From the NCBI GenBank assembly GCA_030065985.1, contig JASJCM010000009.1, positions 62,001 through 126,000 on the forward strand: a stretch of 64,000 nucleotides of DNA, in the 5' to 3' direction. The translations under genes and the position numbers were made by a program. This document shows, piece by piece, positions 31,894-48,319 of the stretch (position 1 is its first letter; every line of letters starts with the position of its first letter). The stretch comes from Woeseiaceae bacterium. Its GTDB lineage: Bacteria > Pseudomonadota > Gammaproteobacteria > Steroidobacterales > Woeseiaceae. The notes under the pieces are model-generated. The model ran no database searches, was not told the DNA's origin, and was given only the letters and a program-made list of their open reading frames with translations.

Positions 31894-32310
31894 TTACTCC
31901 GTAGACGAATAGGGGTTGGGCGGCATCAGTGCCGCGGGAATTGCAGCCCGACGGCGAGCCGCGTCGGGCGGGTAGTTGTCCGCAAGATAGGCAATGATGC
32001 GGCTCTCCGTCTCCGTATCGAACTGCCAGAGGTTCTGCTTGGCCTGCATCCAGCGGATCATGGTCAGCCACTGTTGTGCCGTGCCTCGCTGCTGCGTCAC
32101 CAGCTTGGCCGAATGGCACGGGGTGCAGTTCGCGCGCACGATCTCCCAGTGCTCGGCCATGATCAGGCCGGTCACCGGATCCACTTCAGGCTCGGCCACG
32201 ACGACCACAGGTTTGGCCGCTGGTGCCGGCGGCGCGGCTTCTTCCTTTGAGCACGCGCCGAGCAATGTGGCTCCAGTGACGGCGGCGATGATGAAGCCAA
32301 GTCGCGTCAT
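31894..32310 (-). CDS. sorB: Monohaem c-type cytochrome lipoprotein, SorB-like
   Basis: Lipobox LLGACSK; CTPCH; start codon overlaps the sorA-like stop (TGATG). Confidence 0.75.
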   Translation of the reverse strand: MTRLGFIIAAVTGATLLGACSKEEAAPPAPAAKPVVVVAEPEVDPVTGLIMAEHWEIVRANCTPCHSAKLVTQQRGTAQQWLTMIRWMQAKQNLWQFDTETESRIIAYLADNYPPDAARRRAAIPAALMPPNPYSSTE

Positions 32311-33626
32311 CAAACTGCCTGCACCGCGATCCTGTGACACGCGTTGTTCAGATAGCCCTTCGGGTTCCAGCCGGGCAGCACCATCGGTTGTGCGCGCCCC
32401 GTATCGTCGGTTGCCCGCGCCCAGACTTCGTAATAACCGGTTTCAGGAAACTCGACAGACGCCTGCCAGTGTTGCCACGCGAAACGGTTGGCCGGTTTCT
32501 CCAGCGTGGCCTTCGTCCATGTAGCGCCGAAGTCGATCGATACGTGTACTTCGACAACCTCGCGATCGCCGGCCCAGGCATGTCCGCGAATGGCGAGTTT
32601 GGCCGCAATGTCATGCTCGATGCCGGACTTCGGGTAGGTGACCAGGGATTTCACGGGCATCGACTCGATGATGCACATTTCTTCGTCCGGCACGACGGTG
32701 CCCGGCGCGACGGACTCGCAAGGCACTCGGTATGACGTGCCGGTCATCTTTGGACCATCGTGCACCTGGTTGCGAACGACGATTTTGCGTAGCCATTTGC
32801 CGGCAACCGAGCCAGGCCAGCCTGCGATGACGAGTCGCAACGGATAGCCATTCATATGCGGAATGTCTTCGCCATTCATTGCCCAAGCGATCAGGGATTC
32901 GTCCTCGAGGGCTTTGTCGAGCGGGACGCCCCGAGAGATCGGCACCTTGTTCGGGTCACCGCTGACATGGGTATCTGCGCCGTAATAGGCAACATAGACG
33001 GCGTCGTCCTTGATACCGACGTGTTCGAGGACATCGCGCAGGCGCACCCCCGTCCACTGGGGGCAGCCGATCGCGCCCGTGGTCCACTGGTTACCTGAGG
33101 CCGGCGGGACAAACTCACTGCGACCATTACCGCCGCACTCGAGCTGCAACTGGTAGGTATGGTGCCTGAACTTCGCTTTGAGGTCGGCGACCGACAGCGT
33201 CATCTCCTGCTCAACGGATTCGCCGCCGATCGTGAGTTCCCAGGGGTCCACTTCGATGTTGTCAGCGACCGGCGGAATGCCGTTATTGCGCACGAACAGC
33301 CTTTCTGCCGGTGTGATGCGATCGTCGAGGAGGTGTGCCGGCGCCTCGGCGTTGACAGGCCGATCGTTGAGAACGATCAGTCCTTCCTTGCCGGGAATCG
33401 TGAACGGTTTCTCGCTCTGTGCGAGCGCTGCCGGGATCAGCCCGCCCGGCATCAGGTGGGCGAACGGAATTGAAGCGCCGACGGCGGCGGACATTGCCAT
33501 GAGGCCGCTTCCTTTGAGAAAACCGCGTCGAGTGACCGGATTCGTCTGTCGTCCCCAGACGGCCTTGTCGGCGGCAACGGGGTCGTCCCCGTAGAGTTCG
33601 TGAATACCGCGCTTCTTGTCTGTCAT
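32310..33626 (-). CDS. sorA: SorA/SoxC-type molybdopterin sulfite dehydrogenase, Tat-exported
   Basis: TRRGFLKGSG Tat motif; LQLECGGNGRSEF (Mo-ligand Cys); GVRLRDVLEHVG; AWAGDREVVEVHVSIDFGATW. Confidence 0.88.
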   Translation of the reverse strand: MTDKKRGIHELYGDDPVAADKAVWGRQTNPVTRRGFLKGSGLMAMSAAVGASIPFAHLMPGGLIPAALAQSEKPFTIPGKEGLIVLNDRPVNAEAPAHLLDDRITPAERLFVRNNGIPPVADNIEVDPWELTIGGESVEQEMTLSVADLKAKFRHHTYQLQLECGGNGRSEFVPPASGNQWTTGAIGCPQWTGVRLRDVLEHVGIKDDAVYVAYYGADTHVSGDPNKVPISRGVPLDKALEDESLIAWAMNGEDIPHMNGYPLRLVIAGWPGSVAGKWLRKIVVRNQVHDGPKMTGTSYRVPCESVAPGTVVPDEEMCIIESMPVKSLVTYPKSGIEHDIAAKLAIRGHAWAGDREVVEVHVSIDFGATWTKATLEKPANRFAWQHWQASVEFPETGYYEVWARATDDTGRAQPMVLPGWNPKGYLNNACHRIAVQAV

Positions 33627-33650
33627 ACGGTTAACCTGGCGCGTCGCCAA

Positions 33651-34706
33651 TTAGTAAAGTAATGAAATCAGCGCGATGCTGACGCCGCCGACGAGCAGGG
33701 CCGCGACGAGTCCGGCGCCGAGAGGCTTGAGCCCAATGTCTGCGAGTCCCCGGATGCTCGTGCCGAGCCCGACCGCTGCCATCGCTACACCGAGGCAGAG
33801 CTCGGCCGCTTCCTTCGTGTGGCTGACGATCGCCTGCCATAGTGCGGGCTCGAGTACGCCGAACGGTTGCTCCCCCATGTCACCCACTGTGCGCAGCAGG
33901 CTCATTAGCGCAAAGCCGATGACGAACAACGGAATCATCGTGTACCAGGCTGGCGCCTCGGTGCCGTCCGAGTGGTTACGGTGATAGACGATGCTCATTA
34001 ACGGGATCACGAGGAGCATGCCAAGATTTCGCACGAGCTTGGTAACAGTCGCGACATCGAGCGCCTGCGGTTCGTTGTAGTACTGCTGGTAAACGAGACC
34101 GGCGCCGGCAACCTGCGCGGTTTCGTGCACCGAGGTGCCGAGGAACAGGCCGCTCTTGAACGCATCGCCGTCAAAAATGAAGTGCCCCGCGAACGGGTAC
34201 AGGAGCATGGCAATGACACCGAACAGCGTGATGCAGGCGACCGCGTAGGCCACCTCGTTGTCCTTGGCCGCGATCGTCGGCGCTGTGGCAACGATCGCGG
34301 TCGCGCCGCAGATACTCGTGCCTACGGCGATCAATGTACCCAGCTTGCCGGACAGACCGAGTCGTCTTGCAAGGAATGTGACGACGATGAGCGCCGCGGC
34401 GACGGCGCCGATGATCACGGGCAGTGCCTGCAGGCCAATGGCGCCGGCCTGGCCAAGACTCAGGCGAATGCCGAGCAGTACGATACCGAGTCGCAGCACG
34501 CGGACGAGACCGAAACGGATGCCATCCTGCATGATGTTCGGCAGTGTGAAAGTGTTGCGAATGATGATGCCGAGAATAATCGCCATCATGATTGCGCTGA
34601 CAGGGCTCTTCGGCAGACCCATCAGGTCCTTGCCGATGAACTCCGACAGAAATTGCCCGGCAAACGCCAGGACGAGTGCAAGTAGCAGTCCAGGTAAGAC
34701 GTTCAT
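33651..34706 (-). CDS. YeiH/UPF0324 family membrane protein (putative sulfate exporter family)
   Basis: Multiple TM helices; GTSICGATAIVATAPTI; GTSVHETAQVAGAGL. Confidence 0.85.
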   Translation of the reverse strand: MNVLPGLLLALVLAFAGQFLSEFIGKDLMGLPKSPVSAIMMAIILGIIIRNTFTLPNIMQDGIRFGLVRVLRLGIVLLGIRLSLGQAGAIGLQALPVIIGAVAAALIVVTFLARRLGLSGKLGTLIAVGTSICGATAIVATAPTIAAKDNEVAYAVACITLFGVIAMLLYPFAGHFIFDGDAFKSGLFLGTSVHETAQVAGAGLVYQQYYNEPQALDVATVTKLVRNLGMLLVIPLMSIVYHRNHSDGTEAPAWYTMIPLFVIGFALMSLLRTVGDMGEQPFGVLEPALWQAIVSHTKEAAELCLGVAMAAVGLGTSIRGLADIGLKPLGAGLVAALLVGGVSIALISLLY

Positions 34707-35022: not shown

Positions 35023-35511
35023 TCAGATAAAGAGGTTGATGTCGGCTTGCGTTGCGACTTCGATGTAGGTTGCCGCGCCGCCAAGCTCCGGACCTTCGAT
35101 CATATCGTCGAGCGTATACTCGAACAGGTCCATCGTCATCTGGCAGGCGATGAGCCGAACCTCGGCCTCGACGGCCAGTTCGCGCAGGTCCTCGATCGAG
35201 GCGACGCCTTTCTTGTTCATGAGGTTTTTCATCATCTTCGTGCAGGCTGCATCAACACCCGGGATCGCCGTCAGGATGTTAGGCAGGCCCATGTGGCCGC
35301 CCATCATCGGCATCTTCATCGCCGGGTTACCGGCCGCGGTGAGCTGCAGGTCGAGCTTCTTCAGGAGTAGCGGCAGACCATAGAACGTGAAGAACATGGT
35401 CACGGGCAAACCCATGGCTGCGGCAGTGGTCGCAAGGATGAACGGCGGGTAGGCCCAGTCGAGAGACCCCTTGGTCACGATGATCGACATGCTTTTTTCT
35501 TCAGCAGACAT
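35023..35511 (-). CDS. DsrE3A-like DsrE/DsrF-family sulfurtransferase
   Basis: SIIVTKGSLDWAYPPFILATTAAAMG; conserved Cys in RLIACQMTMDLF. Confidence 0.85.
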   Translation of the reverse strand: MSAEEKSMSIIVTKGSLDWAYPPFILATTAAAMGLPVTMFFTFYGLPLLLKKLDLQLTAAGNPAMKMPMMGGHMGLPNILTAIPGVDAACTKMMKNLMNKKGVASIEDLRELAVEAEVRLIACQMTMDLFEYTLDDMIEGPELGGAATYIEVATQADINLFI

Positions 35512-35602: not shown

Positions 35603-36715
35603 ATGCGCTCTCTCGATCCAATCTACATCGGTAGCGAGATTTTCAGGCGGCCGGCCTTCGGTGCCAACCACCCGCTCAGCATCATGCGGCACGCGGCCGT
35701 GATGGATCTTCTCAATATGCTCGGCTGGCTCGACGATGATGAATTCATGAAGTGCAAGCCTGCATCCGTCGAGCAACTGCAGCGCTTCCACGACCGGTCT
35801 TACGTGCGTGCCCTGCAACATGCGAACGCGACGGGCAAGGTCGATCCGGAGGTGCGTGATCGATACCAGATCGGCACGATGGAGAACCCACTTTTTGCCG
35901 GCGTCTTCGATCGCGCCGCGACGACAGTCGGCGGATCGATACTCGCTGCAAATCTGGCGAACGAGGGCAGGGTGGTATTTCATCCGTCGGGGGGCACGCA
36001 TCATGGTCGTCCGGATCGCGCCAGCGGCTTCTGCTATTTCAACGACCCCGTTTTCGCGATTCTTACGCTGCTCGACCTCGGCAGAGAGCGAGTCCTCTAT
36101 ATTGACCTCGATGCGCATCATGGCGACGGTGTCGAGGAAGCCTTCTATCTCTACCAGCGTGTGACGACGCTGTCTGTTCACGAAGCCCAGCGGTGGCCGT
36201 TCAGCGGCACGCGCTCGCGGCCTTCCCAGAACGTTCACAATTTCAGCGTGGCGCCGGGGCTCAACGACACGGAACTCGAGTTTCTCGTCGATCACGCGAT
36301 CATGCCGCTGATCGCGGAGCGCGAACCCGATGCGCTCGTATTATGTTGCGGCGCTGATTGCCTTGCTGGCGACCCGTTGTCGAAGATGGCGCTGTCGAAT
36401 GTTGCCCTCTGGGATACCGTCGCGCGCTTGCTTGCCATCGACCTGCCGACCGTCGTTCTGGGCGGCGGTGGCTACAACCCGTGGACGGTCACGCGCTACT
36501 GGGCCGGCATATGGGGCATGATCAAGGGCGAAACGGTGCCCGAGCGCCTGTCAGCTGAAGCGACAAGCTTCCTTGGAGAGATGGAATGCGACCTCATCGA
36601 TGAGGACGAGATCGAGCCGGAGTGGCTCACGTCGCTCGCGGATACCCCGTATCCCGGGCCCGTGCGGGACACGATAAAATCACTGGTAACTGATGCCGGG
36701 AGACACGTTGCATGA
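35603..36715 (+). CDS. Histone-deacetylase-superfamily (class I HDAC/AcuC-like) zinc deacylase
   Basis: GGTHHGRPDRASGFCYFND, YIDLDAHHGDGVEEAFY, GADCLAGDPL, GGGGYNPWTVTRYW: catalytic His pair, Zn ligands and Tyr all present. Confidence 0.92.
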   Translation: MRSLDPIYIGSEIFRRPAFGANHPLSIMRHAAVMDLLNMLGWLDDDEFMKCKPASVEQLQRFHDRSYVRALQHANATGKVDPEVRDRYQIGTMENPLFAGVFDRAATTVGGSILAANLANEGRVVFHPSGGTHHGRPDRASGFCYFNDPVFAILTLLDLGRERVLYIDLDAHHGDGVEEAFYLYQRVTTLSVHEAQRWPFSGTRSRPSQNVHNFSVAPGLNDTELEFLVDHAIMPLIAEREPDALVLCCGADCLAGDPLSKMALSNVALWDTVARLLAIDLPTVVLGGGGYNPWTVTRYWAGIWGMIKGETVPERLSAEATSFLGEMECDLIDEDEIEPEWLTSLADTPYPGPVRDTIKSLVTDAGRHVA

Positions 36716-37749
36716 GCTGGCTTGATTTGCTTGCGGGAATCGAGGATCTCGAGGATGCGGAGTTCGATGCCGATCTCATCGCCGAATTCGAACGACGTCG
36801 GGACGTCGCCGTTGCGCGGCCAATACGATTCTCGACGCCGACGTTCAAGGAGTACGAGAGCACCGAACTCGAGGGTTGCGGCAAGAACAGTTTCCCGGCG
36901 TTCTCGATAACCGCCGGCGAATGTGGTCTCAACTGCGACCACTGCCAGAAGAAGATCCTCGAGCCGATGATTCCTGCGACCAGTCCGCAGATGCTCGATG
37001 AGAAGGTACGGCAACTCGTCGACACCCAACAGCTCAGCGGCTTCCTGCTGAGCGGCGGTTCGAACCGCAAGAACGAAATTCCCTACGGCCGCTACATGCC
37101 CGTCATCGAGGGGCTCAAGACCGAGTTTCCGGGTCTCAAGGTCGCCGTGCACACCGCGCTGCTCGATGAGCGGCGCGCGAAAGACATGGAAAGCGCCGGT
37201 GTGGATACGGTCATGATGGACGTCATCGGCGCGCAGGAAACGATCGAGCAGGTGTACAAGCTCAAGCGCCCGGTCGAGGACTTCGAAGAAACGCTGGCTG
37301 CGCTGTGTTCAACTTCAATGGAAGTAACGCCGCACATCGTTGTCGGCCTTCACTATGGGCAGATACTTGGCGAAGCTAACGCGCTCGACATGGTCAGTCG
37401 CTATGACGTCAACGCGCTCGTTCTCGTCGTGATCATGCCGTTCTATGCGAAACCCGGCACGTTCGTGACCCCTGAGACGTCCGACGTCGGTCGCATCTTC
37501 CTCGAGGCGAGGGAGCGGCTCGCGGACCAGCAGGTGCTGCTGGGCTGCGCCAGGCCGCCCGGGATGCACAAGCGTATCACCGATGCCTACGCGATCATGG
37601 CCGGACTCGACGGTATCGCATTTCCCGCCGACGGCGCCGTGTCGGTCGCGCATACGATCGGCCGGCCATTCGAGCAGGCGCATTCATGCTGTTCAATCAA
37701 GGTGGGCAGCGATCTCAAGAACCGATTACAGGCATCGTTCGCCGCTTAG
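36712..37749 (+). CDS. Radical SAM protein, LipS-type (sHdr-associated lipoate synthesis)
   Basis: CGLNCDHCQ (CxxxCxxC); ATGA overlap with the HDAC-like gene; paired with a second radical SAM and a lipoate ligase. Confidence 0.82.
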   Translation: MSWLDLLAGIEDLEDAEFDADLIAEFERRRDVAVARPIRFSTPTFKEYESTELEGCGKNSFPAFSITAGECGLNCDHCQKKILEPMIPATSPQMLDEKVRQLVDTQQLSGFLLSGGSNRKNEIPYGRYMPVIEGLKTEFPGLKVAVHTALLDERRAKDMESAGVDTVMMDVIGAQETIEQVYKLKRPVEDFEETLAALCSTSMEVTPHIVVGLHYGQILGEANALDMVSRYDVNALVLVVIMPFYAKPGTFVTPETSDVGRIFLEARERLADQQVLLGCARPPGMHKRITDAYAIMAGLDGIAFPADGAVSVAHTIGRPFEQAHSCCSIKVGSDLKNRLQASFAA

Positions 37750-37760
37750 GACCGGAAATT

Positions 37761-39014
37761 ATGGGTTGTATCGAACACAAGAAATCGCCGGCGACCGATA
37801 GCAACGGTCGCGACTTCAATCCTTACGAGGTCATGGAGCCGCGGCTGCCTGGCAAGACGCCGGTCGATCGGCGTAATGGCAAGCACGTCAAGGCCAACGA
37901 CATACCGCCAGAGGGTGTTTACCTGCCCAACAACAACATACTCGCGCCTCACATGAAGTCGCCCGAGTATGTTCAGCTTTCCAATGCCGCCGCGATCACG
38001 CTCGGCATCATGGGCGGCCGCATGTACGGCTGTGAGTGCACGCGCTGCCTGAACCTGCTGCTGACTTATCCCGAGGGCTGCCGCGCCAACTGTGCCTACT
38101 GCGGCCTCGCGCGTCATCGCGAGGCAGAGCGTGACTACGCGGACCGCAACTTCATTCGCGTCGACTGGCCCGCCGTGCCGATGACCGACATCGTCGACAT
38201 CGTGGCCAGGGATCCGGAGAACAGCCCGTTCCATCGCATGTGCATCTCGATGATCACGCACCCGCGATCCGAACAGGACACATTCAACGTGCTCGAACAG
38301 TGGACCGACCGTATCGATCCCGACGCGATCCCGGTGTCGATCCTGTCGAATCCGACCACAATGACGCGTGACGACGTGCAGAAGTGCAAGGACCTTGGCG
38401 CCGATATTTTCACGGTCGCCCTCGATGCGGCGACGCCCGAACTGTTCGACCGCACACGCGGCAAAGGCGTGCAGTCGCCCCACAAATGGAAGAAGTACTG
38501 GGACACGCTGCTCGAAGCGAAAGATATTTTCGGCCAGGAGAAATTCGGTGCCCACATCATCGTTGGCATGGGTGAGACCGAGTACGAGGTACTGAATCTC
38601 GTCCAGGAACTGGTCGACCTCGGCGGGCACAGCCACATGTTCTGTTTCTTCCCCGAAGAAGGCTCGCTCATGGATCACCTGCCGGCGACGCCGCGCGACC
38701 AGTGGCGGCGCGTGCAGCTGGCGCGTTACCTGATCGACTACCGCGATGTTCGCGTCGACCACATGCGCTTCGACGATGCGGGCCGGGTCACTGATTACGG
38801 CATTTCGAACGCCGAACTCAACGATGTCATCGACGCCGGTATCGCCTTTCGAACATCGGGTTGTCCAGGTAAATTCCAGGACGACATCTCGGCCTGTGAC
38901 CGTCCTTACGGTGACTCACCGCCCAGCAACATCGCGAGCTACCCGTTCCAGCCCAAGAAGAAAGACCTCAAGAAGATTCGCAAGCAGCTCGATATTCCGG
39001 TGACCGTCAGGTAA
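37761..39014 (+). CDS. Radical SAM protein, second LipS-type
   Basis: CRANCAYCGLA; context with LipS-like and sLpl-like genes. Confidence 0.82.
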   Translation: MGCIEHKKSPATDSNGRDFNPYEVMEPRLPGKTPVDRRNGKHVKANDIPPEGVYLPNNNILAPHMKSPEYVQLSNAAAITLGIMGGRMYGCECTRCLNLLLTYPEGCRANCAYCGLARHREAERDYADRNFIRVDWPAVPMTDIVDIVARDPENSPFHRMCISMITHPRSEQDTFNVLEQWTDRIDPDAIPVSILSNPTTMTRDDVQKCKDLGADIFTVALDAATPELFDRTRGKGVQSPHKWKKYWDTLLEAKDIFGQEKFGAHIIVGMGETEYEVLNLVQELVDLGGHSHMFCFFPEEGSLMDHLPATPRDQWRRVQLARYLIDYRDVRVDHMRFDDAGRVTDYGISNAELNDVIDAGIAFRTSGCPGKFQDDISACDRPYGDSPPSNIASYPFQPKKKDLKKIRKQLDIPVTVR

Positions 39015-40090
39015 TGAGCGAGACATTCCGCATTATCGACACCGGAGTGCGGGAAGGGCGTTCCAACATTGCTTTCGACGCGGCGCTGATCGAGCTGCGG
39101 CAGCAAGGGGTCGTGCCGGACACGATTCGCTTTCTTCGCTTCCCGCCCACGGCATTGATCGGTCGTCACCAGGATTTGAGCCGTGAAATCAACCTCGATT
39201 ATTGCCGCGACGATGGCGTCGGCACGGTCCGGCGGATCACGGGAGGCGGGGCGATCTACCTCGACGAGGGGCAGCTCGGCTGGGAGCTCGTCTTTCATCG
39301 CTCGGCACTTGGCATCGCGGCGCTGCCCGACCTCGCTCGCGAGATCTGCAATGCGGCCGCAGCCGGTTTGAGCGAGCTCGGTGTTGACGCCAAGTTCCGG
39401 CCGCGCAATGACATTGAAGTTGGCGGACGAAAGATCAGCGGCACGGGCGGCTTCTTCGACGGGGACATCCTGATCTACCAGGGCACTGTGCTCGTCGACA
39501 TGAATCCCGCCCAGATGGTCAGGGCGCTGAACATCCCCGAGGCAAAGGTCACGAAGCACGACCTCGACTCGGCGGAGAAGCGTGTGGTCACTTTGAAAGA
39601 GCTGCTGGGTGACGAGCTGCCGGACATAGAAACAATCAAGGCAGCGCTGATCAAGGGCTTCACGGAAGGTCTGGGTATCAAGGCCGAGCCAGGCGAGATC
39701 ACCGAGGCCGAGGAGGCTCTCGCGCAGCGTATCTTTGAAGAGGAAATCGGCACCGACGACTTCGTCGCCGAAATCGATAACCCTGGCGGGAGCGATCAAT
39801 TGCTCGAAGGAACGCATACGGGAGCCGGCGGCACAATCGCGACCTTCGTCAAGCTCGAGGGTCCGACACACGGCCTCGTGCAGCGAGCGCTCATCACAGG
39901 GGACTTCTTCGTCACGCCGCCGCGCGTTGTGTTCGATCTCGAAGCCGCGTTGGCAGGAACCCGACTCGACGACGTTGAAAGTACGGTCAATAACTTCTTC
40001 GATGAGACCGACATCGACATGCTGAGTGTCGGTGCCGGCGATTTCGTTGCATCAATCAACGATGCGCTGTCGCACCGGGAAGGGACCTGA
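39014..40090 (+). CDS. sLpl(AB)-type lipoate-protein ligase (catalytic plus accessory domain)
   Basis: RRITGGGAIYLDEGQLGWELV, DIEVGGRKISGTGGF; C-terminal accessory-domain-length extension; adjacent to the lbpA locus. Confidence 0.85.
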   Translation: MSETFRIIDTGVREGRSNIAFDAALIELRQQGVVPDTIRFLRFPPTALIGRHQDLSREINLDYCRDDGVGTVRRITGGGAIYLDEGQLGWELVFHRSALGIAALPDLAREICNAAAAGLSELGVDAKFRPRNDIEVGGRKISGTGGFFDGDILIYQGTVLVDMNPAQMVRALNIPEAKVTKHDLDSAEKRVVTLKELLGDELPDIETIKAALIKGFTEGLGIKAEPGEITEAEEALAQRIFEEEIGTDDFVAEIDNPGGSDQLLEGTHTGAGGTIATFVKLEGPTHGLVQRALITGDFFVTPPRVVFDLEAALAGTRLDDVESTVNNFFDETDIDMLSVGAGDFVASINDALSHREGT

Positions 40091-40092
40091 AC

Positions 40093-40881
40093 TTGGCCCA
40101 GTGTAAGAACCCTGACGACGCTTTCGTGCTTGCCGCGCATGAAGCGGACCCGATGAATGTGGTCGCCGTCATCCAGCACACGTCCGGCGAATATCTTGGG
40201 CTGATCGAGGACCATCTCGAAGGTCGCCGAGTCCGTTTTCAGTATTACCGACCGTTTGCAGCCGGCAAGCTGCCCGACCCGACGCTGCCTGCCGACGCAT
40301 TGATTTTGCTCGGCGGCGGCCCCTGGGGCGCGGCCGGGTCGCGAGATCTGCCGACCCTCGAGCAGGAGGTCGAGCTGACCCGCCAGCGACTCGCAGAAGG
40401 CACGCCGGTGATCGCGTTCGGTCTGGGCGCCCAGGTGCTGGCGCTTGCGGCAGGCGGCAGCGTCGATTCGCGCGACCTGACCTTCGAGATCCTGCCGGCG
40501 CGTCGCACCCGCGATGGCGCGCTCAACGGCTTTTTGCCCGAGAGCCTGACCCAGGTGGTCTACATGCGGGACTGGCCGCGATTTCCGGATGCGGCGCAGA
40601 CGCTTGCTGAGGACGAGTCAGGCCGAGCCGTAGCGTGGCAGCTTGGAGACAACGTCTTCGCCTTCGCGGGCAACCCGGGGGTCAAGCTCGGCATGATCGA
40701 GGATCTCGTCATGGAATTTGAGGAGGTGCCCGCGAACACCGGGGAGGGCCTTGAAAAACTTAGAGAAATTCAGGGGGTTATCGAGGACGAGCTCGTTCCG
40801 CTGATGACCGGACTCGTGCAGTGTACCGCGCTAATGGCCAGGCCAAGGGCGGCTCAGGAGTTGGATGCACAGCTAATTTAG
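40093..40881 (+). CDS. Class-I glutamine-amidotransferase-like protein with apparently degenerate catalytic triad
   Basis: GATase-like core PADALILLGGGPWGA..., TPVIAFGLGAQVLALAAGG, VFAFAGNPGVK; TTG start directly after the ligase. Confidence 0.7.
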   Translation: MAQCKNPDDAFVLAAHEADPMNVVAVIQHTSGEYLGLIEDHLEGRRVRFQYYRPFAAGKLPDPTLPADALILLGGGPWGAAGSRDLPTLEQEVELTRQRLAEGTPVIAFGLGAQVLALAAGGSVDSRDLTFEILPARRTRDGALNGFLPESLTQVVYMRDWPRFPDAAQTLAEDESGRAVAWQLGDNVFAFAGNPGVKLGMIEDLVMEFEEVPANTGEGLEKLREIQGVIEDELVPLMTGLVQCTALMARPRAAQELDAQLI

Positions 40882-40895
40882 TATATGCTAATGAA
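40874..40895. promoter_or_regulatory. Candidate repressor operator (site 3)
   Basis: TAATTTAG-tatatg-CTAATGAA; shares TTAG-N6-CTAAT with site 1; 37 bp upstream of the dsrE start. Confidence 0.45.
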
Positions 40896-40932
40896 CTGTT
40901 GGACGGCCGTTCAACGTCAGGGGAATCACAAC

Positions 40933-41310
40933 ATGGCAGAAAAACTCATCATCGTGATGGCGAACACCGATACGCGTAACGGCGAGGAACTCGGTGCGCC
41001 AATTTTCCAGGCTACCGTCGCCGCCGCGATGGACTACGACGTCGACGTGATCTGCACCGCAACGTCGGGGCGACTCATGAAGAAGGGCGTCGCGGAGAAC
41101 CTGTACGTCAAGGAAGGTTCGCCCAAGTCGGTTTACAGCTTTATCCAGGACGCCCACGAGGCAGGCGCCAAATTCTATTGCTGTTCGCCCAATCTCGACC
41201 TGTTCGACATGACGAAGGACGACCTGATTCCCGAATGTGAGGGTATCGTTGGTGGCGCCCATCTGATCGAAGAGGTCATGGAAGGCGATTGCCGGGTACT
41301 GTCTTACTAA
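40933..41310 (+). CDS. DsrE-family protein (DsrE3C-like), first gene of the sHdr cluster
   Basis: AEKLIIVMANTDTRNGEELGAPIFQATVAAAMDYDVDVI; FYCCSPNLDLFDM. Confidence 0.82.
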   Translation: MAEKLIIVMANTDTRNGEELGAPIFQATVAAAMDYDVDVICTATSGRLMKKGVAENLYVKEGSPKSVYSFIQDAHEAGAKFYCCSPNLDLFDMTKDDLIPECEGIVGGAHLIEEVMEGDCRVLSY

Positions 41311-41331
41311 GTAACAGAGAGGTTCGAGCCT

Positions 41332-42078
41332 ATGTCGCATTCCTCCGCGTCACGAGTACAGGAATACATCGGCGATCCGGTCTCCGACTCACCGCCCGTC
41401 GATCGAGGCAAGCTCGAAGAGATATTCCAGGACATCCAGGCGGACCTGCGCTACGACCATGAGCTCAATGGCTGCCTGAACTGCGGCATCTGCACGGCCA
41501 CGTGCCCGGCCGCGCATTACTACGACTTCAGCCCCCGCGAAATCGTGCAGCTGCTCTGGACCGAGAATCTCGAGGGCATTCACGATGCGATGCAGGAGAA
41601 GATCTGGTCCTGCGCGCAGTGCTACACCTGCGCAGCGCGTTGTCCGTTCGGCAACTCGCCCGGCGGTCTCGTCATGCTGATGCGTGAGACCGCGATCAAG
41701 CACGGCATGGAGTCGGCGAAGAGCGTGTTGCGCCCGTTCAGCCGCGTGATGCTGAAGCTCATTTCGACCGGCAACCAGTTGTCGCCGGACATGATCAACC
41801 CTGAAGGCTTTGCCGACTGGGGTCCCCATATTTCCAAGGTGGACGCGCCACTGGCGACGCTGCGCAAAGCCATCCCGATGCCGACCTTGCACACGACCAA
41901 GACGGCATGGGAAGTCAATCTCAAGACCTCCGTCGAGCTCTACACGATCTGGGAAGAGACCGGCGTGCTGGACAGCCTTGAGACGATTGACGAAAACCTC
42001 TTCGACGTCATTCTCGACATCATGGATGAGAAGCGCGACGACTACGAAGACTGGCTCGACGAACAGGATGATGATTGA
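41332..42078 (+). CDS. shdrC1: sHdrC1, ferredoxin-like Hdr subunit
   Basis: CLNCGICTATCPAAHYYDFSPRE, CAQCYTCAARCPFGN. Confidence 0.88.
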   Translation: MSHSSASRVQEYIGDPVSDSPPVDRGKLEEIFQDIQADLRYDHELNGCLNCGICTATCPAAHYYDFSPREIVQLLWTENLEGIHDAMQEKIWSCAQCYTCAARCPFGNSPGGLVMLMRETAIKHGMESAKSVLRPFSRVMLKLISTGNQLSPDMINPEGFADWGPHISKVDAPLATLRKAIPMPTLHTTKTAWEVNLKTSVELYTIWEETGVLDSLETIDENLFDVILDIMDEKRDDYEDWLDEQDDD

Positions 42079-42089
42079 GGTAACGCGTT

Positions 42090-43445
42090 ATGGCAGGTAA
42101 CGACGGCGAACGATTTACAGGGCATGGCTCCGAGTGGGTCGATGCGAATCTCTCGAAAGAGGATGCTCACACGGCGACGGTCTGGGTTGACCAGATCATC
42201 AACAAACGCTCGATGCTGACCAACAAGGATCGCGTCGAAGACGTACGTGATGCCATGTGGGAACTCGAAAAGAACGGCGAGATCGTCGTTCATCGAGTGA
42301 AGGACGAGCATGAGCCCGTCACGGTCAAGACGCTGTACGGCTGGGACAAGCGTGTGCCGACGACACAGCTCTGGCACCACAAGTCCTGCGGCCAGTGCGG
42401 CAACATCCCCGGGTACCCCGCGTCACTCTTGTGGCTCATGAACAAGATGGACATCCGGTATCTCGACGAGACGGACCAGACGTCCTGTACTGCGTGGAAC
42501 TACCACGGCTCGGGCATCGGCAATATCGAGAGTCTCGCGGCCGTGTTCCTGCGCAATTTCCACCAGGCCTATGTGTCGGCGAAGGCGCAGGGTCTGCCCG
42601 ATGGTTATTTCTACCCCCTCGTGCACTGCGGCACGTCTTTCGGCAACTACAAGGAAGTCCGCGGCTACCTGTTGCATTCCGCGAAGCTGCGCGAGCGCGT
42701 TAAGACGATTCTCGGCAAGCTCGGCCGCCTCGTCGATGGCAAGCTGCTGATTCCGGAAGAGATCGTGCACTACTCGGAGTGGGTGCACGTCATGCGCGAC
42801 CGTATCAAGGAACACCAGGTCATCGACTGCAGCAACATCCGCGCGACGGTGCACCCGGCCTGCCACGTCTACAAGATGGTTCCCGAGGACGCGATTTACG
42901 ACGACGATATCCTCGAAGGTAACCGCGTAGCGGTGACGACGGGAATCCTCGAGACGCTGGGTACGCAGGTCATCGACTACTCGACGTGGTACGACTGCTG
43001 CGGCTTCGGCTTCCGCCACATCATCTCGGAGCGCGAGTTCACGCGTTCGTTCGCGATCGACCGCAAACTGCGTGTCGCTCAGGAAGAAGCGCGGGCCGAC
43101 ATGATGGTCGGTCACGACACGGGCTGCATTACGACGCTCGACAAGAACCAGTGGATTGGCGCGGCCGCGGGTAAACCGGTCGAGCTTCCCGTACTTGCGG
43201 ACTGCCAGTTCGCCGCGCTTATTTGCGGCGCGCATCCCTACAAGATCGTCCAGTCGCATTGGCACGCATCGCCGACCGAGCAGCTCTACGAGAAGCTCGG
43301 CATCGACTGGGAAGCGAAGAAGAAGGAATTCGAGGACTACCTCAAGGAAGTCGAGGCGGGTCGGGGTGAGAACCTCTACGATCCGCGCTTGATGATCACG
43401 TCCGGCCCGGGCTTCAAGCCTGTGGGCCAGATCGCCGAAGAATAA
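42090..43445 (+). CDS. shdrB1: sHdrB1
   Basis: HKSCGQCGNIPGYPASLLW, CHVYKMVP...YDCCGFGFRH; gene order. Confidence 0.86.
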   Translation: MAGNDGERFTGHGSEWVDANLSKEDAHTATVWVDQIINKRSMLTNKDRVEDVRDAMWELEKNGEIVVHRVKDEHEPVTVKTLYGWDKRVPTTQLWHHKSCGQCGNIPGYPASLLWLMNKMDIRYLDETDQTSCTAWNYHGSGIGNIESLAAVFLRNFHQAYVSAKAQGLPDGYFYPLVHCGTSFGNYKEVRGYLLHSAKLRERVKTILGKLGRLVDGKLLIPEEIVHYSEWVHVMRDRIKEHQVIDCSNIRATVHPACHVYKMVPEDAIYDDDILEGNRVAVTTGILETLGTQVIDYSTWYDCCGFGFRHIISEREFTRSFAIDRKLRVAQEEARADMMVGHDTGCITTLDKNQWIGAAAGKPVELPVLADCQFAALICGAHPYKIVQSHWHASPTEQLYEKLGIDWEAKKKEFEDYLKEVEAGRGENLYDPRLMITSGPGFKPVGQIAEE

Positions 43446-43471
43446 CGGCCTTAACAAACAGGCAGCAGACA

Positions 43472-44515
43472 ATGAGTAAACCCGTTCTAGTAGTTGGTGG
43501 CGGCCCGGCAGGTCTGGCGGCCGCACACAGTCTTGCAACCGTTGGCAAGGAATGCGTCATCGTCGAAAAGGAAGACCGCCTCGGTGGCACGCCAATCCTC
43601 TCGGGGTACGCCAAGCTCGTGCCGACCGGGGAATGGGCCAAAGATGCGATCGGCGGCATGGTCGATCGTGTGGCGAACGAAGACAAGGTGAAGATCGTCA
43701 CGAATGCGACGGTAACGAGCTTCGACGGCACGCCGGGCAACTTCACGGCGCAGCTTTCCAATGGCGACAGCCTCGACGCCGAGGCGGCCATCCTCTGCAG
43801 CGGGTTCTCCCATTTCGATTCCGTCAACAAGCCCGAATGGGGTTTCGGCACGTACGAAGACGTCGTCACGACGACGCAGGTCGAGCAGATGATCTCGTCA
43901 GGGCAGGGCGTGCGCTGTCCGTCGGATGGACGCAAACCGCAACGCGTTGCCATTTTGTTGTGCGTCGGCTCGCGCGATCGCCAGATCGGGCGTGAGTGGT
44001 GCTCGAAGATCTGCTGCACCGTATCGGCCAACATGGCGATGGAAATTCGCGAAGAGCTGCCGGACTGCCACGTCTACATCTACTACATGGATATCCGTAC
44101 GTTCGGCCTCTACGAGACCAAGTACTACTGGAAGAGCCAGGAAGAGTTCAAGGTCAAGTACATCAAAGCGCGTATCGCCGAAGTCACGTCCGACGGCGAA
44201 AAACTCATTGTGAAGGGCGAAGATACGCTCGTGAAGCGCCCGATAACGATTCCGTTCGACATGGTCGTGCATGCCATTGGCATGGACCCGAACGTCGACA
44301 ACCCGGAGATCGCCGAGACGTTTGGTATCGATCTCGAGACCCACGGCTACATCGATGTAGCGAATAGCTACGGCGCCATGGGCGCAACGTCGCGACCGGG
44401 GGTCTTCGTCGCGGGATCGGCAACGGGCCCGGAAACGATCGACGATTCGATCGCACAGGGCCACGCCGCGGCGATGGCCGTGCTGTCCAGCGGCAAAGCG
44501 CTCAAGTCCGCCTGA
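43472..44515 (+). CDS. shdrA: sHdrA flavoprotein
   Basis: VLVVGGGPAGLAAAHSLATVGKECVIVEKEDRLGGTP; CSKICCTVSANMA. Confidence 0.92.
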   Translation: MSKPVLVVGGGPAGLAAAHSLATVGKECVIVEKEDRLGGTPILSGYAKLVPTGEWAKDAIGGMVDRVANEDKVKIVTNATVTSFDGTPGNFTAQLSNGDSLDAEAAILCSGFSHFDSVNKPEWGFGTYEDVVTTTQVEQMISSGQGVRCPSDGRKPQRVAILLCVGSRDRQIGREWCSKICCTVSANMAMEIREELPDCHVYIYYMDIRTFGLYETKYYWKSQEEFKVKYIKARIAEVTSDGEKLIVKGEDTLVKRPITIPFDMVVHAIGMDPNVDNPEIAETFGIDLETHGYIDVANSYGAMGATSRPGVFVAGSATGPETIDDSIAQGHAAAMAVLSSGKALKSA

Positions 44516-44516
44516 G

Positions 44517-45359
44517 ATGCCATCCCCGACCGCACTGCAACCGCATGAGTTCGAGCGCCCTGTTCTCGACCTGCACGGTCCTGCGTTGCGGGCCGCGTTC
44601 CAGGCCATGATCCAGGGAAGCGAGGAACACGGCGGTATCGAACGCTATATCGATGCGGTCAAACTCAAGAGCCAGATGTTCCGGCAGGCACTCGTCGAGA
44701 ACGATGTCGCCGAGCTGGATCTCGAGACCTTCAAGGGCCTCTGCACGTTTATGGCAACAGTGCGACGTCGCATCGGTGACTGGCTCAACGAAGATTCGTT
44801 CGCGACGATGCGTGGCCACATTGTTGAGTTACTCGACGAAGCTGAGCATATCGACAACAGGATTGGTCGCTTTTGTGAGCAGTTTCCGGACGACAAGCGC
44901 CATCGCTGGGTACGCGATCTCGCGACCGAATTACTACACAACGCCGATCCCGAACGCGTACCGCTCATGAACCGTTGGGTCTGGGACGCGAAAGCCAATA
45001 CCGGCGTGATTCGCGAAGTCTGGCATGGCGACGACGTCGACCACATTACGATTGCCGTCACCGACGGCTACGGCACCTACATCATGCTGCGCGAGGAGTT
45101 GTCCCAGTTCCTGAGCGACAACGGTGTGTTCCGGGACGTGCTCTATTACGTCGACGTCCTGTGCGCCCAGGTTTACGCGCAATATATCTGTGAACAAGGT
45201 GGTTCCTACCTGCGCGCCGACTTCTCGGCACCGGAGGATCCGATGCAACACACGCGTCGACTCCTCGGTCTCGATGGCGTTCAGCCGGGCAACGGCAGGA
45301 CCCGTCTCAAGTCGATTGATGGCGAGGCTTTCGTCCTCGATGACAAGCACCTGAATTAA
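44517..45359 (+). CDS. Conserved hypothetical of the sHdr operon (sHdrH/Hyp position)
   Basis: Position between shdrA and shdrC2, as in described sHdr loci. Confidence 0.8.
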   Translation: MPSPTALQPHEFERPVLDLHGPALRAAFQAMIQGSEEHGGIERYIDAVKLKSQMFRQALVENDVAELDLETFKGLCTFMATVRRRIGDWLNEDSFATMRGHIVELLDEAEHIDNRIGRFCEQFPDDKRHRWVRDLATELLHNADPERVPLMNRWVWDAKANTGVIREVWHGDDVDHITIAVTDGYGTYIMLREELSQFLSDNGVFRDVLYYVDVLCAQVYAQYICEQGGSYLRADFSAPEDPMQHTRRLLGLDGVQPGNGRTRLKSIDGEAFVLDDKHLN

Positions 45360-45372
45360 GCGGAATAACGCA

Positions 45373-46140
45373 ATGCCCATTCATGAGAAGAACCTGATTC
45401 GCCCCGAGGACATCAAAACCCACGATGAACTCGTGCTGGATGGCGTCGATGTGTCCGGCCACTGGAGCACGTTCATTGAGACGCGCGTGGTGAAGGACTA
45501 CAACGAAAACCTCCAGGAGGAGATCGCGGCGTTGCCAGGGGGCGAGGAAATTCATCGCTGCTGGCAGTGCGGTTCCTGCACGAATGCCTGTACGGTCAAC
45601 GCCATTAACCCGGACTTCAACCCGCGCTACTGGATCTACCTGATTCGCATGGGCTATGAATCCGAACTGCTGCGCGACAAGGACATTATCTGGCAGTGCG
45701 TTTCGTGCAATAAGTGCACCTATGCCTGCCCGCGCGACGTATTCCCCGAAGGCGTTATGAAAGCCACCGCGCACTGGCTCGAGTTGAAGGGCCACACGAG
45801 CAAATCGCCGTCGACGCATTTCGACGAGATTTTCACCGAGCAGATCGTCGCCACGGGCAAGATCGAGGAAAGCCGCACGATCCGGCGTTTCTTCACGCGC
45901 ACAGGCCAGGCGCTGATGCAGCCGTGGCTCATTGAAATGACCAAACGGATGCTGCGCGGCCTGCCGATCGGGTTGCTGACGCGCATGGGCCTTGCGACGT
46001 TCGTGGCGCCAAGAACCAGCGACTGGTCCAAAGCCTCGGCCGCGATTCAGGAATACATCGACGAACAGCACGATAAACACGAGCAGGCGCTGAGTCTTGC
46101 CCAGCTCGTGGAGACTGCAAAGCAAGACGTGGCTGCCTAA
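45373..46140 (+). CDS. shdrC2: sHdrC2
   Basis: CWQCGSCTNACTVNAINPDFNPRYWI, CVSCNKCTYACPRDV. Confidence 0.9.
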   Translation: MPIHEKNLIRPEDIKTHDELVLDGVDVSGHWSTFIETRVVKDYNENLQEEIAALPGGEEIHRCWQCGSCTNACTVNAINPDFNPRYWIYLIRMGYESELLRDKDIIWQCVSCNKCTYACPRDVFPEGVMKATAHWLELKGHTSKSPSTHFDEIFTEQIVATGKIEESRTIRRFFTRTGQALMQPWLIEMTKRMLRGLPIGLLTRMGLATFVAPRTSDWSKASAAIQEYIDEQHDKHEQALSLAQLVETAKQDVAA

Positions 46141-46150
46141 GGGATTCGAG

Positions 46151-47086
46151 ATGAGTACGACGAAAGACAAATACAAGAAGGTCGCCTACTACCCGGGCTG
46201 TGCCCTTGAGGGTACGGGTCACGCCTACAATCGTTCGACCAAGGCCGTTGGCAAGAAGCTGGGTCTCGATCTTGTCGAGGTCGAAAACTGGAACTGCTGC
46301 GGCGCGATGGAAGTCAAAAATATCGATCCGAAGATTCAGACTTACCTGTCGTCGCGCGTCATGTCGACGGCGGCGAACGAGATGGATATGGATGTGGTCA
46401 TGGCGCCGTGCAATGGCTGCTACCACAATCTCAAGAAAGCCGAATACGATCTCGCCAATGACGACGAGTCCGTTGCGGTTGTCGACAAGCTGTCGCAAAA
46501 AGCCGGCCACAAGACTTACGAGTCCGGCCAGGTCGAGACCATTCACGCGCTCGACTGGATCAAGGATACGATCGGCGAAGAGGGTCTCAAGGCCCGCGTC
46601 AAGAATTCGCTCGAAGGCATCAAGGTTGCGAACTACTACGGCTGCATGTACACGCGGCCGCGCCATATCTTCCCCGAGAAAGACCAGGGGCCGGGCAGCG
46701 AGTCGACCTCAAAGCCCCACTTCATGGACGACCTGCTGGCGGCGGCCGGCGCCGAAAACGTCGACTTCCCGTTGAAGACAGCCTGCTGTGGCGGTGCGCA
46801 CACACTGTCTGACAGCGACACGTCGACCAAGCTGGTACTCAATATCCTCAAAGCCGCGAAGATGTCGGGTGCGGATGTCATTGCGACCGAGTGTCCGACC
46901 TGTCACTCGGGTCTCGAGATGCACCAGATCCGCGCCGAAAAAGTATTTGGCGAGAAAGTCGAGATGAAGATTCTGTACTTCACCCAGCTGCTCGGCATGG
47001 CGCTCGGTCTGAAGCCCCGCAAGGTTGGCGTCCACGAAAACGTGTCGGACTCAATCCAGTTCCTGAAAGAGAAGGGGCTTGCGTGA
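46151..47086 (+). CDS. shdrB2: sHdrB2 with two CCG domains
   Basis: YYPGCALEGTGHAYNRS, NWNCCGAMEV...APCNGCYHN, ACCGGAHTLSD...CPTCHSG. Confidence 0.92.
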   Translation: MSTTKDKYKKVAYYPGCALEGTGHAYNRSTKAVGKKLGLDLVEVENWNCCGAMEVKNIDPKIQTYLSSRVMSTAANEMDMDVVMAPCNGCYHNLKKAEYDLANDDESVAVVDKLSQKAGHKTYESGQVETIHALDWIKDTIGEEGLKARVKNSLEGIKVANYYGCMYTRPRHIFPEKDQGPGSESTSKPHFMDDLLAAAGAENVDFPLKTACCGGAHTLSDSDTSTKLVLNILKAAKMSGADVIATECPTCHSGLEMHQIRAEKVFGEKVEMKILYFTQLLGMALGLKPRKVGVHENVSDSIQFLKEKGLA

Positions 47087-47526
47087 GACCGCTCGCAGAA
47101 CTCGAGGCGATATTCGACGCGCCAATGCAGGATGGCGATGTCCAGGCATCGGCACGGAATCTGCTCGCCGCGAGCGAAGAAGTGCTCGAACACTGGATTA
47201 CGGCACACGGGCACGAGCCAACTAATGACACACGCGAGGGCTTTCGCCTACTCGCGTTGCACCGGCAAGGCACGACGGGCGATCCGAGCTTTAATGCCTG
47301 TCGGGAGACGTGCCGGGAGATCGCCTACTACTTCAACCTCATCACAATGCAGCCCGAGAATTCGGATATTACGGATCGCTTATATATGATGGGGATGGTA
47401 TCCAGACACCTGTATTTGTTTATAAGTGGCAAGCTGCAGGTGGCGGAGCTCGGCGAGTTTTGCTGCTCGTCGCGTCCTATTAGGTCGAAGCCAGGCCACG
47501 ATTCAACGACACACAAGGAGGCCTAG
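47083..47526 (+). CDS. Hypothetical protein, Cys-containing, between shdrB2 and lbpA
   Basis: GTG start overlapping the shdrB2 stop (GTGA); FNACRETCREIAYYFNLITM, LGEFCCSSRP. Confidence 0.7.
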   Translation: MRPLAELEAIFDAPMQDGDVQASARNLLAASEEVLEHWITAHGHEPTNDTREGFRLLALHRQGTTGDPSFNACRETCREIAYYFNLITMQPENSDITDRLYMMGMVSRHLYLFISGKLQVAELGEFCCSSRPIRSKPGHDSTTHKEA

Positions 47527-47528
47527 GT

Positions 47529-47969
47529 ATGCCATCTGTACGCGGATGTAATCTGCCCGACGATCTGCTCTACGACGTAGACAATCACATCTGGTTCACG
47601 GAAGTGGGCGACGGTACCGTGAAAATCGGTATGACGGCTGTGGCCACGGCGATGTCGGGCAAGCTGGTTGCCTTTACGCCGAAGAAGGTCGGGCGCAGCG
47701 TTCGTGCCGGCAAGTCCTGTGGCACGCTGGAATCCGGCAAATGGGTCGGTCCTGCGAAATCCGCCGCCGGCGGCGAGGTGGTTGGTGTCAACGAAGACCT
47801 TGTCGGCGATCCGAGCATTGCCAATGATGATCCTTACGAGAAAGGCTGGCTGATCATTCTGCGCCCGGATGACTGGGACTCGGTCAAAGGATCGTTGGTT
47901 GTCGGCAGCGACGTCTCTGGACCTTACGAAGCCAAGATGGATTCGGAAGGCTTCGGTGGCTGCGAGTGA
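47529..47969 (+). CDS. lbpA: Lipoate-binding protein of sulfur oxidation (GcvH-like)
   Basis: MPSVRGCNLPDDLLYDVDNHIWF; lipoyl-lysine context CGTLESGKWVGPAKS; AAGGAGG RBS. Confidence 0.93.
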   Translation: MPSVRGCNLPDDLLYDVDNHIWFTEVGDGTVKIGMTAVATAMSGKLVAFTPKKVGRSVRAGKSCGTLESGKWVGPAKSAAGGEVVGVNEDLVGDPSIANDDPYEKGWLIILRPDDWDSVKGSLVVGSDVSGPYEAKMDSEGFGGCE

Positions 47970-48319
47970 CGACTGACGAGGCGATACAACGGTCCGACGA
48001 GGACTTTACCAAACTCAAAGAGCTGCACGACTCGGCCGCGCATGCTGTCGAGCTGCTCAAAGCCATGGCGAACGAGTGGCGCCTGATGATTCTGTGCCAG
48101 CTGTCGGAGGGGGAAAAAACCGTCAGCGAATTGCAGGATATTCTCGGGCTTAGCCAGTCGGCGTTGTCACAGCACCTGGCGGTGCTGCGGCGCGAGAAAA
48201 TCGTCACGGCCAGGAAGCATGCGCAATCGGTCAGCTATTCGCTGGCCGGCGATGATGCACCGAAAGTGATGCATACATTGCACGAAGTTTTTTGCGAATC
48301 GCGGGGAGACAAATCATGA
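47966..48319 (+). CDS. ArsR-family repressor, SqrR/BigR/sHdrR-like, two-Cys
   Basis: LKAMANEWRLMILCQLSEGEKTVSELQDILGLSQSALSQHLAVLRREKIVTARK; Cys44 and Cys110 by count; GTGA overlap with lbpA. Confidence 0.88.
   Translation: MTTDEAIQRSDEDFTKLKELHDSAAHAVELLKAMANEWRLMILCQLSEGEKTVSELQDILGLSQSALSQHLAVLRREKIVTARKHAQSVSYSLAGDDAPKVMHTLHEVFCESRGDKS

Follow-up and report, generated by a model that had tools for sequence, protein, structure and literature searches.

A predicted zinc-dependent lysine deacylase of the histone deacetylase family accompanies the sHdr-LbpA sulfur-oxidation system in Proteobacteria

The DNA analyzed here, referred to as the window, is a 64-kb stretch from a Woeseiaceae bacterium, and it is a sulfur-oxidation island. 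A gene of the histone deacetylase (HDAC) family is followed by lipS1, lipS2, sLpl, lipX, dsrE, shdrC1B1AHC2B2, a small gene, lbpA, and a gene for an ArsR-type regulator (Table 1); the gene names are taken from PMC6067878, PMC10332631, and PMC10451225. With shdrC1B1AHC2B2 clustered with lbpA and the lip genes (36712-47969), this is a type I sHdr-LbpA locus. A first-pass annotation of the same DNA had described the HDAC gene as heading a LipS-LipS-ligase-sHdr-LbpA run, and so it does, although that description left out lipX and the DsrE-like gene. The range given there, 35603-37749, covers lipS1 (36712-37749) as well as the deacylase; the ATGA, reported as shared by the HDAC stop codon and the start of the first LipS-like gene, lies where the two genes overlap.

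Table 1. Features of the deacylase locus in the window, with the evidence for each assignment
Feature	Position	Strand	Evidence
DsrE2 sulfur carrier, divergent neighbor, kept in many T1 loci	35023-35511	-	NCBIfam SulfCarrDsrE2 above cut-off
Zn-dependent lysine deacylase (predicted), HDAC family PF00850, clade T1, 370 aa, ATG start	35603-36715	+	ORF, Pfam, structure search, AlphaFold2 model, invariant catalytic residues
ATGA, HDAC stop/lipS1 start overlap	36712-36715	+	Sequence; translational coupling inferred
lipS1, radical SAM (CGLNCDHC)	36712-37749	+	NCBIfam LipS1 E 3.3e-59, under curated cut-off; CxxxCxxC kept
lipS2, radical SAM (CRANCAYC)	37686-39014, true start maybe more downstream	+	NCBIfam LipS2 E 2.6e-54, under curated cut-off; CxxxCxxC kept
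sLpl(AB), lipoate:protein ligase	39014-40090	+	Pfam LplA-B_cat E 1e-45
lipX, resembles class I glutamine amidotransferases, Gly in place of the nucleophile Cys	40093-40881	+	NCBIfam PRK07053 E 1.3e-19; motif alignment
DsrE-like sulfur carrier (dsrE3C position in Hyphomicrobium)	40885-41310	+	Pfam DrsE_2; gene order from PMC10451225
sHdrC1, Fe-S protein	41332-42078	+	Pfam Fer4; conserved order
sHdrB1	42090-43445	+	Position and conserved order; 67-90% identity to homologues in other sHdr genomes
sHdrA, flavoprotein	43472-44515	+	Conserved order
sHdrH	44517-45359	+	Conserved order
sHdrC2	45373-46140	+	Conserved order
sHdrB2	46151-47086	+	Conserved order
LbpA, GcvH-like lipoate-binding protein; presumed lipoyl-lysine K71 (ESGKWVGP)	47529-47969	+	Pfam GCV_H E 1.5e-30; lysine by analogy with GcvH
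ArsR-type regulator, sHdrR-like	47966-48319	+	NCBIfam ArsR/SmtB, BigR-like

The order of genes is nearly that of Hyphomicrobium denitrificans, in which lipS1, lipS2, slpl, lipX, dsrE3C, shdr, and lbpA are found (PMC10451225). There, as judged by the locus tags, lipS1 (Hden_0683) directly follows shdrR (Hden_0682) with no gene between them, whereas the window cluster is headed by an HDAC, which also sets it apart from the sLpl(AB)-LipS1/LipS2 and sHdr-LbpA system as described (Cao 2018, PMC6067878; Tanabe 2023, PMC10332631). The word "deacetylase" does not occur in the sHdr and lipoate papers on that system that we examined, and the main texts of the open-access literature searched yielded no paper that connects an HDAC or deacetylase with sHdr, with LbpA, or with sulfur oxidation by heterodisulfide reductase. 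Unlike Hyphomicrobium, the window has no lipT between lipS1 and lipS2 (36712-39014); in many other loci of the clade called T1 below, about 1 kb is left free at this place, which would fit lipT.

Several other features of the neighborhood should be recorded. Published work labels LipX as a putative glutamine amidotransferase, but in the aligned survey homologues (I/F)GLGAQ (xGxGxQ) replaces xCxGxQ; as the nucleophile Cys is missing, LipX is probably not an amidotransferase. Upstream of the HDAC gene and divergent from it, beside dsrE2, lie genes for a YeiH-like membrane transporter (PF03601) and for a molybdoenzyme that resembles sulfite dehydrogenase (32310-34706, minus strand), which suggests that sulfite oxidation or export adjoins the sHdr cluster. 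A search of the gap between dsrE2 and the HDAC gene for a promoter or palindrome that might serve co-regulation by sHdrR found no repeats, and promoter matches were at chance level.

The deacylase matches Pfam family PF00850 (Hist_deacetyl) with an E value of 1.1e-63 and 215.8 bits against a cut-off of 27.9, and no family in NCBIfam. Its top solved relative is HDLP of Aquifex aeolicus (E 2.9e-62); HDAC8 and further HDACs of class I come next, and the protein is therefore not of the class IV (HDAC11) type by sequence. The AlphaFold2 model (mean pLDDT 93.4, pTM 0.93) has the arginase-deacetylase fold and superimposes on HDLP with a TM score of 0.91-0.93 at 34% identity and on human HDAC8 with one of about 0.80-0.87. 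HDLP (PDB 1c3p, 1c3r) is thus the best match in both sequence and fold, and its catalytic and rim residues are the same as those of the window protein. All four catalytic motifs that had been quoted as intact (GGTHHGRP, DLDAHHGDG, GADCLAGD, and GGGGY) are present in the translation; the fold and the catalytic residues of the deacylase are intact.

The His pair, zinc ligands, and catalytic Tyr (H133, H134, D168, D170, H172, D175, D252, and Y291) are invariant in 56 T1 sequences, and the same residues are invariant in a second clade, T2. The acidic residue at the rim, E94, which corresponds to HDLP E92, is kept in 56/56 T1 and 21/21 T2 sequences and lost in 11/11 of a third group, T1b. In HDAC8 the equivalent acid, D101, holds the backbone of the substrate; the presence of the acid in the sHdr-linked clades T1 and T2 and its absence from T1b speak for a protein substrate in the former, and catalytic residues, rim acid, and fold together support the prediction of a lysine deacylase. 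The gatekeeper Glu of polyamine deacetylases (HDAC10/ApaH) is absent: at the site of HDLP L265, which is L259 in the window protein and Leu in both, 55 of the 56 T1 sequences have Leu and one has X. The foot-pocket motif is SGGTHH with GGGY and not of the RPP type, and XGGXHH with GGGY in place of RPP goes with wider acyl-chain acceptance according to PMC11532494. The foot pocket resembles the acyl-promiscuous or long-chain classes of that paper, which makes promiscuity for acyl length plausible.

Homologous loci were selected by their similarity to the HDAC and not by neighborhood. The deacylase protein alone was used as the query against 84,980 species genomes, giving 339 relatives, and the window proteins were then mapped onto the loci of the best 80. 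Of these, 66 have lipS1 on the strand of the HDAC gene, and in all but four of the 66 (62/66) it begins within 150 nt downstream of that gene; the gap is at most 30 nt in 44/66, and the two genes overlap by 1-14 nt in 20/66. Chance is excluded as the cause of this arrangement. The linked loci span the Gamma-, Beta-, and Alphaproteobacteria, with hosts in the Woeseiaceae, Lysobacterales, Burkholderiales, Rhodospirillales, Hyphomicrobiales, Kordiimonadaceae, Parvularculaceae, and others. When the phylum and the class around G600 were sampled, the genomes outside the Gammaproteobacteria in which T1 adjoins lipS1 were G371, G416, G600, G910, and G858; G693 and G903 carry an HDAC relative of about 500 bits on a different contig. 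Nine Robiginitomaculum-like genomes have the HDAC gene away from the lip genes, with LipS1 or sHdrB1 elsewhere in 8/9; in several of these the HDAC gene adjoins dsrE2, and two that were closely inspected also have a TusA-like gene there. No genes of the cluster evolve faster than the HDAC gene and lipX, whose products have median identities of 63% and 62% to those of the window, versus 72-92% for the others. Among plasmids, only four records, of the Roseobacter group, hold relatives, 41-45% identical, and LipS1 was not found.

A tree of 96 HDAC sequences, made with a careful search though with bootstrap values not fully settled, separates three groups: T1 (support 100/99), T1b (98/90), and T2 (100/99). 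T1 is monophyletic, and its sister T1b, about 46% identical to it, comprises free-standing alphaproteobacterial HDACs. The notion that any close HDAC relative is linked to sHdr was considered and rejected, as T1b shows no common neighborhood across the seven loci inspected and sHdrB1 is absent from all 13 genomes with T1b-tier HDACs. T2 is an HDLP-like clade with CbbQ/NorQ-type and aldo/keto reductase genes as neighbors; at L149:3256-11551 and similar T2 loci, a second protein with an LplA/B catalytic domain is encoded farther off, and the CbbQ/NorQ-type AAA ATPase has a large partner. HDLP itself groups with T1, T1b, and T2 at full support, but it has a long branch of unsure placement that falls within neither T1 nor T2; it is closer in mean identity to T2 (41.6%) than to T1 (35.6%).

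LipS1 and the HDAC were searched for in the same set of 369 Gammaproteobacteria. LipS1 is present in 26 of these (at least 184 bits, the next score being 61). The HDAC profile scores fall into tiers of about 600 bits for T1 (G000 and G167) and 325-390 bits for T2 (20 genomes), with ordinary HDACs at 205 bits or less. When the sHdr status of the 26 LipS1-positive genomes was established from the regions around LipS1 and an sHdrB1 search, all 20 with sHdr had a T1 or T2 HDAC, and none of the six lacking sHdr did. The six (G311, G045, G178, G035, G186, and G267) possess LbpA, LipS1, and sLpl, with no sHdrB1 genome-wide and no T1/T2 HDAC, which led us to reject the idea that the HDAC link is a by-product of the lipoate genes. 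Their LbpA-LipS1-sLpl(-LipS2) sets (L114, L115, L116, L118, L132, and L138, in G178, G311, G267, G035, G186, and G045, respectively) mostly adjoin DsrE2, and in G311 sox-like genes are also nearby.

The same pattern is seen from the side of sHdr. In a sample of 234 Gammaproteobacteria, sHdrB1 was found in 15 genomes, of which 14 have a T1/T2 HDAC; the count in the 219 sHdrB1-negative genomes is zero if HDAC-bearing genomes outside the listed sample matches are taken as not drawn. Fisher p values, calculated with kinship ignored, are 1e-21 for sHdr and 4e-6 within the LipS1-positive genomes. Co-occurrence with sHdr loci, on which the first-pass annotation had made its reading depend, is thus found both by neighborhood and by genome content. 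The one exception, G106, has sHdrB1 and lacks both LipS1 and a T1/T2 HDAC, so that its family (f108) is concordant for LipS1 and not for sHdrB1. LipS1, sHdrB1, and the HDAC are present or absent together within families f149 (present in G147, absent from G259 and G355), f91 (G089 versus G212 and G313), and f123 (G121 and G236 versus G333), which argues against shared ancestry alone. Family f158 is concordant for sHdr, G156 having both and G267 neither sHdrB1 nor HDAC. In G337, a genome only 75% complete, a T2 HDAC was found and neither LipS1 nor sHdrB1 was; a further candidate for an HDAC without LipS1, G191, was rejected, as its contig has lipS2 and sLpl and its genome sHdrB1.

The T1/T2 deacylase therefore tracks sHdr-LbpA as a complete system, not the genes of lipoate assembly on their own; it sits in the sHdr cluster of many proteobacteria and almost never occurs without sHdr. 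Synteny, co-occurrence, and presence or absence within families strongly support the functional link to the sHdr-LbpA locus that had been proposed from the window. Conversely, G868 and G369 have sHdr and LipS and no T1/T2 HDAC. Because these two genomes and the H. denitrificans locus do without the deacylase, it is an accessory and not an essential or obligatory step of lipoylation. The alphaproteobacterium G868 (L199), whose lip genes are clustered with those for sHdr, LbpA, and DsrE2, offers a natural comparison.

What, then, might the enzyme do? We infer an enzymatic activity, a protein substrate, LbpA as the target, and a reset role; the deacylase probably takes an acyl group off some lysine within the sHdr-LbpA machinery. 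The reading that we prefer, with roughly even confidence, is that T1 is an active zinc lysine deacylase and a dedicated accessory of sHdr-LbpA, that LbpA is its likeliest predicted substrate, and that it resets the lipoyl arm. The enzyme would have been recruited, apparently once in clade T1, and would be produced together with the lipoate-assembly genes. It would hydrolyze acyl-lysine on an sHdr-LbpA protein, most likely LbpA, stripping non-functional or worn groups such as octanoyl, acetyl, or incompletely sulfurated or over-oxidized lipoyl, after which sLpl and LipS1/LipS2 could rebuild a working arm. The need for such a reset may arise only when sHdr turns LbpA over. LbpA is favored as the substrate because the gene is coupled to lipS1 and lipoyl-lysine is the obligatory acyl-lysine of the system, whereas the co-occurrence pattern favors the sHdr proteins: since genomes with LipS1, sLpl, and LbpA but without sHdr lack the HDAC, lipoyl-LbpA alone does not require it, and an sHdr subunit could be the substrate. 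The earlier suggestion of a zinc deacylase editing the cofactor pathway is partly supported: residues, rim acid, and fold speak for the lysine deacylase, and the six LipS1-positive genomes without sHdrB1 speak against a role in lipoate assembly as such; a pure lipoate-editing role is weakened. Against the dedicated accessory stand the genomes with sHdr genes and no T1/T2 HDAC (G868, G369, and G106), the T1 genes beside dsrE2-tusA in the unlinked Robiginitomaculum-like genomes and the T2 neighborhood of CbbQ/NorQ-type and aldo/keto reductase genes. A bolder version, in which a zinc eraser dedicated to LbpA takes octanoyl or lipoyl off so that the arm is rebuilt, and Aquifex HDLP natively does the same for sulfur oxidation, seems to us doubtful.

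There are precedents for the chemistry. Removal of lipoyl from lysine has been reported for HDAC11 and for the lipoamidase sirtuins CobB and SIRT4 (PMC10622836, PMC5596343), though HDAC11 is of class IV and the window enzyme HDLP/class-I-like, and sirtuins are NAD-dependent and of a different fold. The site of a zinc HDAC can also receive the lipoyl group: (R)-dihydrolipoate binds in the HDAC6 site by thiolate-zinc coordination with a KD of 350 nM (PMC10622836). The same finding, with the inhibition of human HDACs by reduced lipoyl groups (PMC10272112), means that reduced lipoyl-LbpA might inhibit the deacylase instead of being cleaved.

Other readings have to be weighed against the same observations. 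The enzyme could be a deacetylase that guards lysines of sHdr subunits, LipS1/LipS2, sLpl, or apo-LbpA from chemical acetylation, with lipoyl not a substrate. This agrees with a presence that tracks sHdr and not the lip genes, with deacetylation as the usual activity of a family whose nearest folds here are HDLP and HDAC8, and with the HDLP-like leucine at L259; yet the gene lies directly before lipS1 and not beside the shdr genes, and general acetyl stress leaves its absence from sHdr-negative relatives with LbpA and lip genes unexplained. We regard it as possible, if on the unlikely side. Because sLpl(AB) uses only free octanoate or lipoate (PMC10332631), one may also imagine that the deacylase frees these from octanoyl- or lipoyl-proteins made by LipB (GcvH, E2), for a two-step transfer through sLpl to LbpA. 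LipB was present in 12/12 genomes tested, and the gene stands ahead of lipS1-lipS2-sLpl, but genomes with sLpl, LipS1, and LipB and without sHdr lack the HDAC, and lipoyl-E2 enzymes would be harmed unless the activity were highly specific, so that we find this improbable.

We think it equally hard to credit that the protein is a passenger of the operon which, like AcuC, regulates acetyl-CoA synthetase or some other enzyme of metabolism. Three of the four Roseobacter-group plasmid relatives are annotated as acetoin utilization protein AcuC, and the window enzyme has XGGXHH and GGGY in common with AcuC and the cluster 2 bacterial deacylases of PMC11532494, where no deacylase from an sHdr locus is named in the text examined. 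However, AcuC acts on acetyl-CoA synthetase from the acu operon whereas T1 lies in the sHdr-lip operon, the deacylase has no NCBIfam match, and the tight co-occurrence with sHdr and adjacency to lipS1 would be left unexplained. Least probable of all, and in our view very remote, is a small-amide hydrolase that acts on an acyl-polyamine or acylated thiol carrier in cytoplasmic sulfur transfer: small-molecule amidohydrolases do exist in the family (PMC11532494) and some T1 genes are paired with dsrE2-tusA, but the gatekeeper Glu is absent and the peptide-binding rim acid is invariant in T1.

For the preferred reading, a dedicated accessory of sHdr-LbpA with LbpA as the likeliest target, no such job has been described before for an HDAC-family enzyme in the literature searched. 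Bacterial zinc deacylases are numerous and few have a known natural substrate; here, the dedicated operon leaves only a few proteins as candidates. HDLP, a bacterial HDAC homologue whose structure was reportedly solved in 1999, has long been used as the structural model for histone deacetylases, and the binding of class I HDAC inhibitors was first understood on it. We know of no earlier zinc-dependent eraser assigned to a lysine that carries a cofactor. Should LbpA prove to be the substrate, the T1 deacylase would be the first, lipoylation in sulfur oxidizers could be reset, and one could suggest what HDLP, the protein that served as the model for inhibitor binding, does natively.
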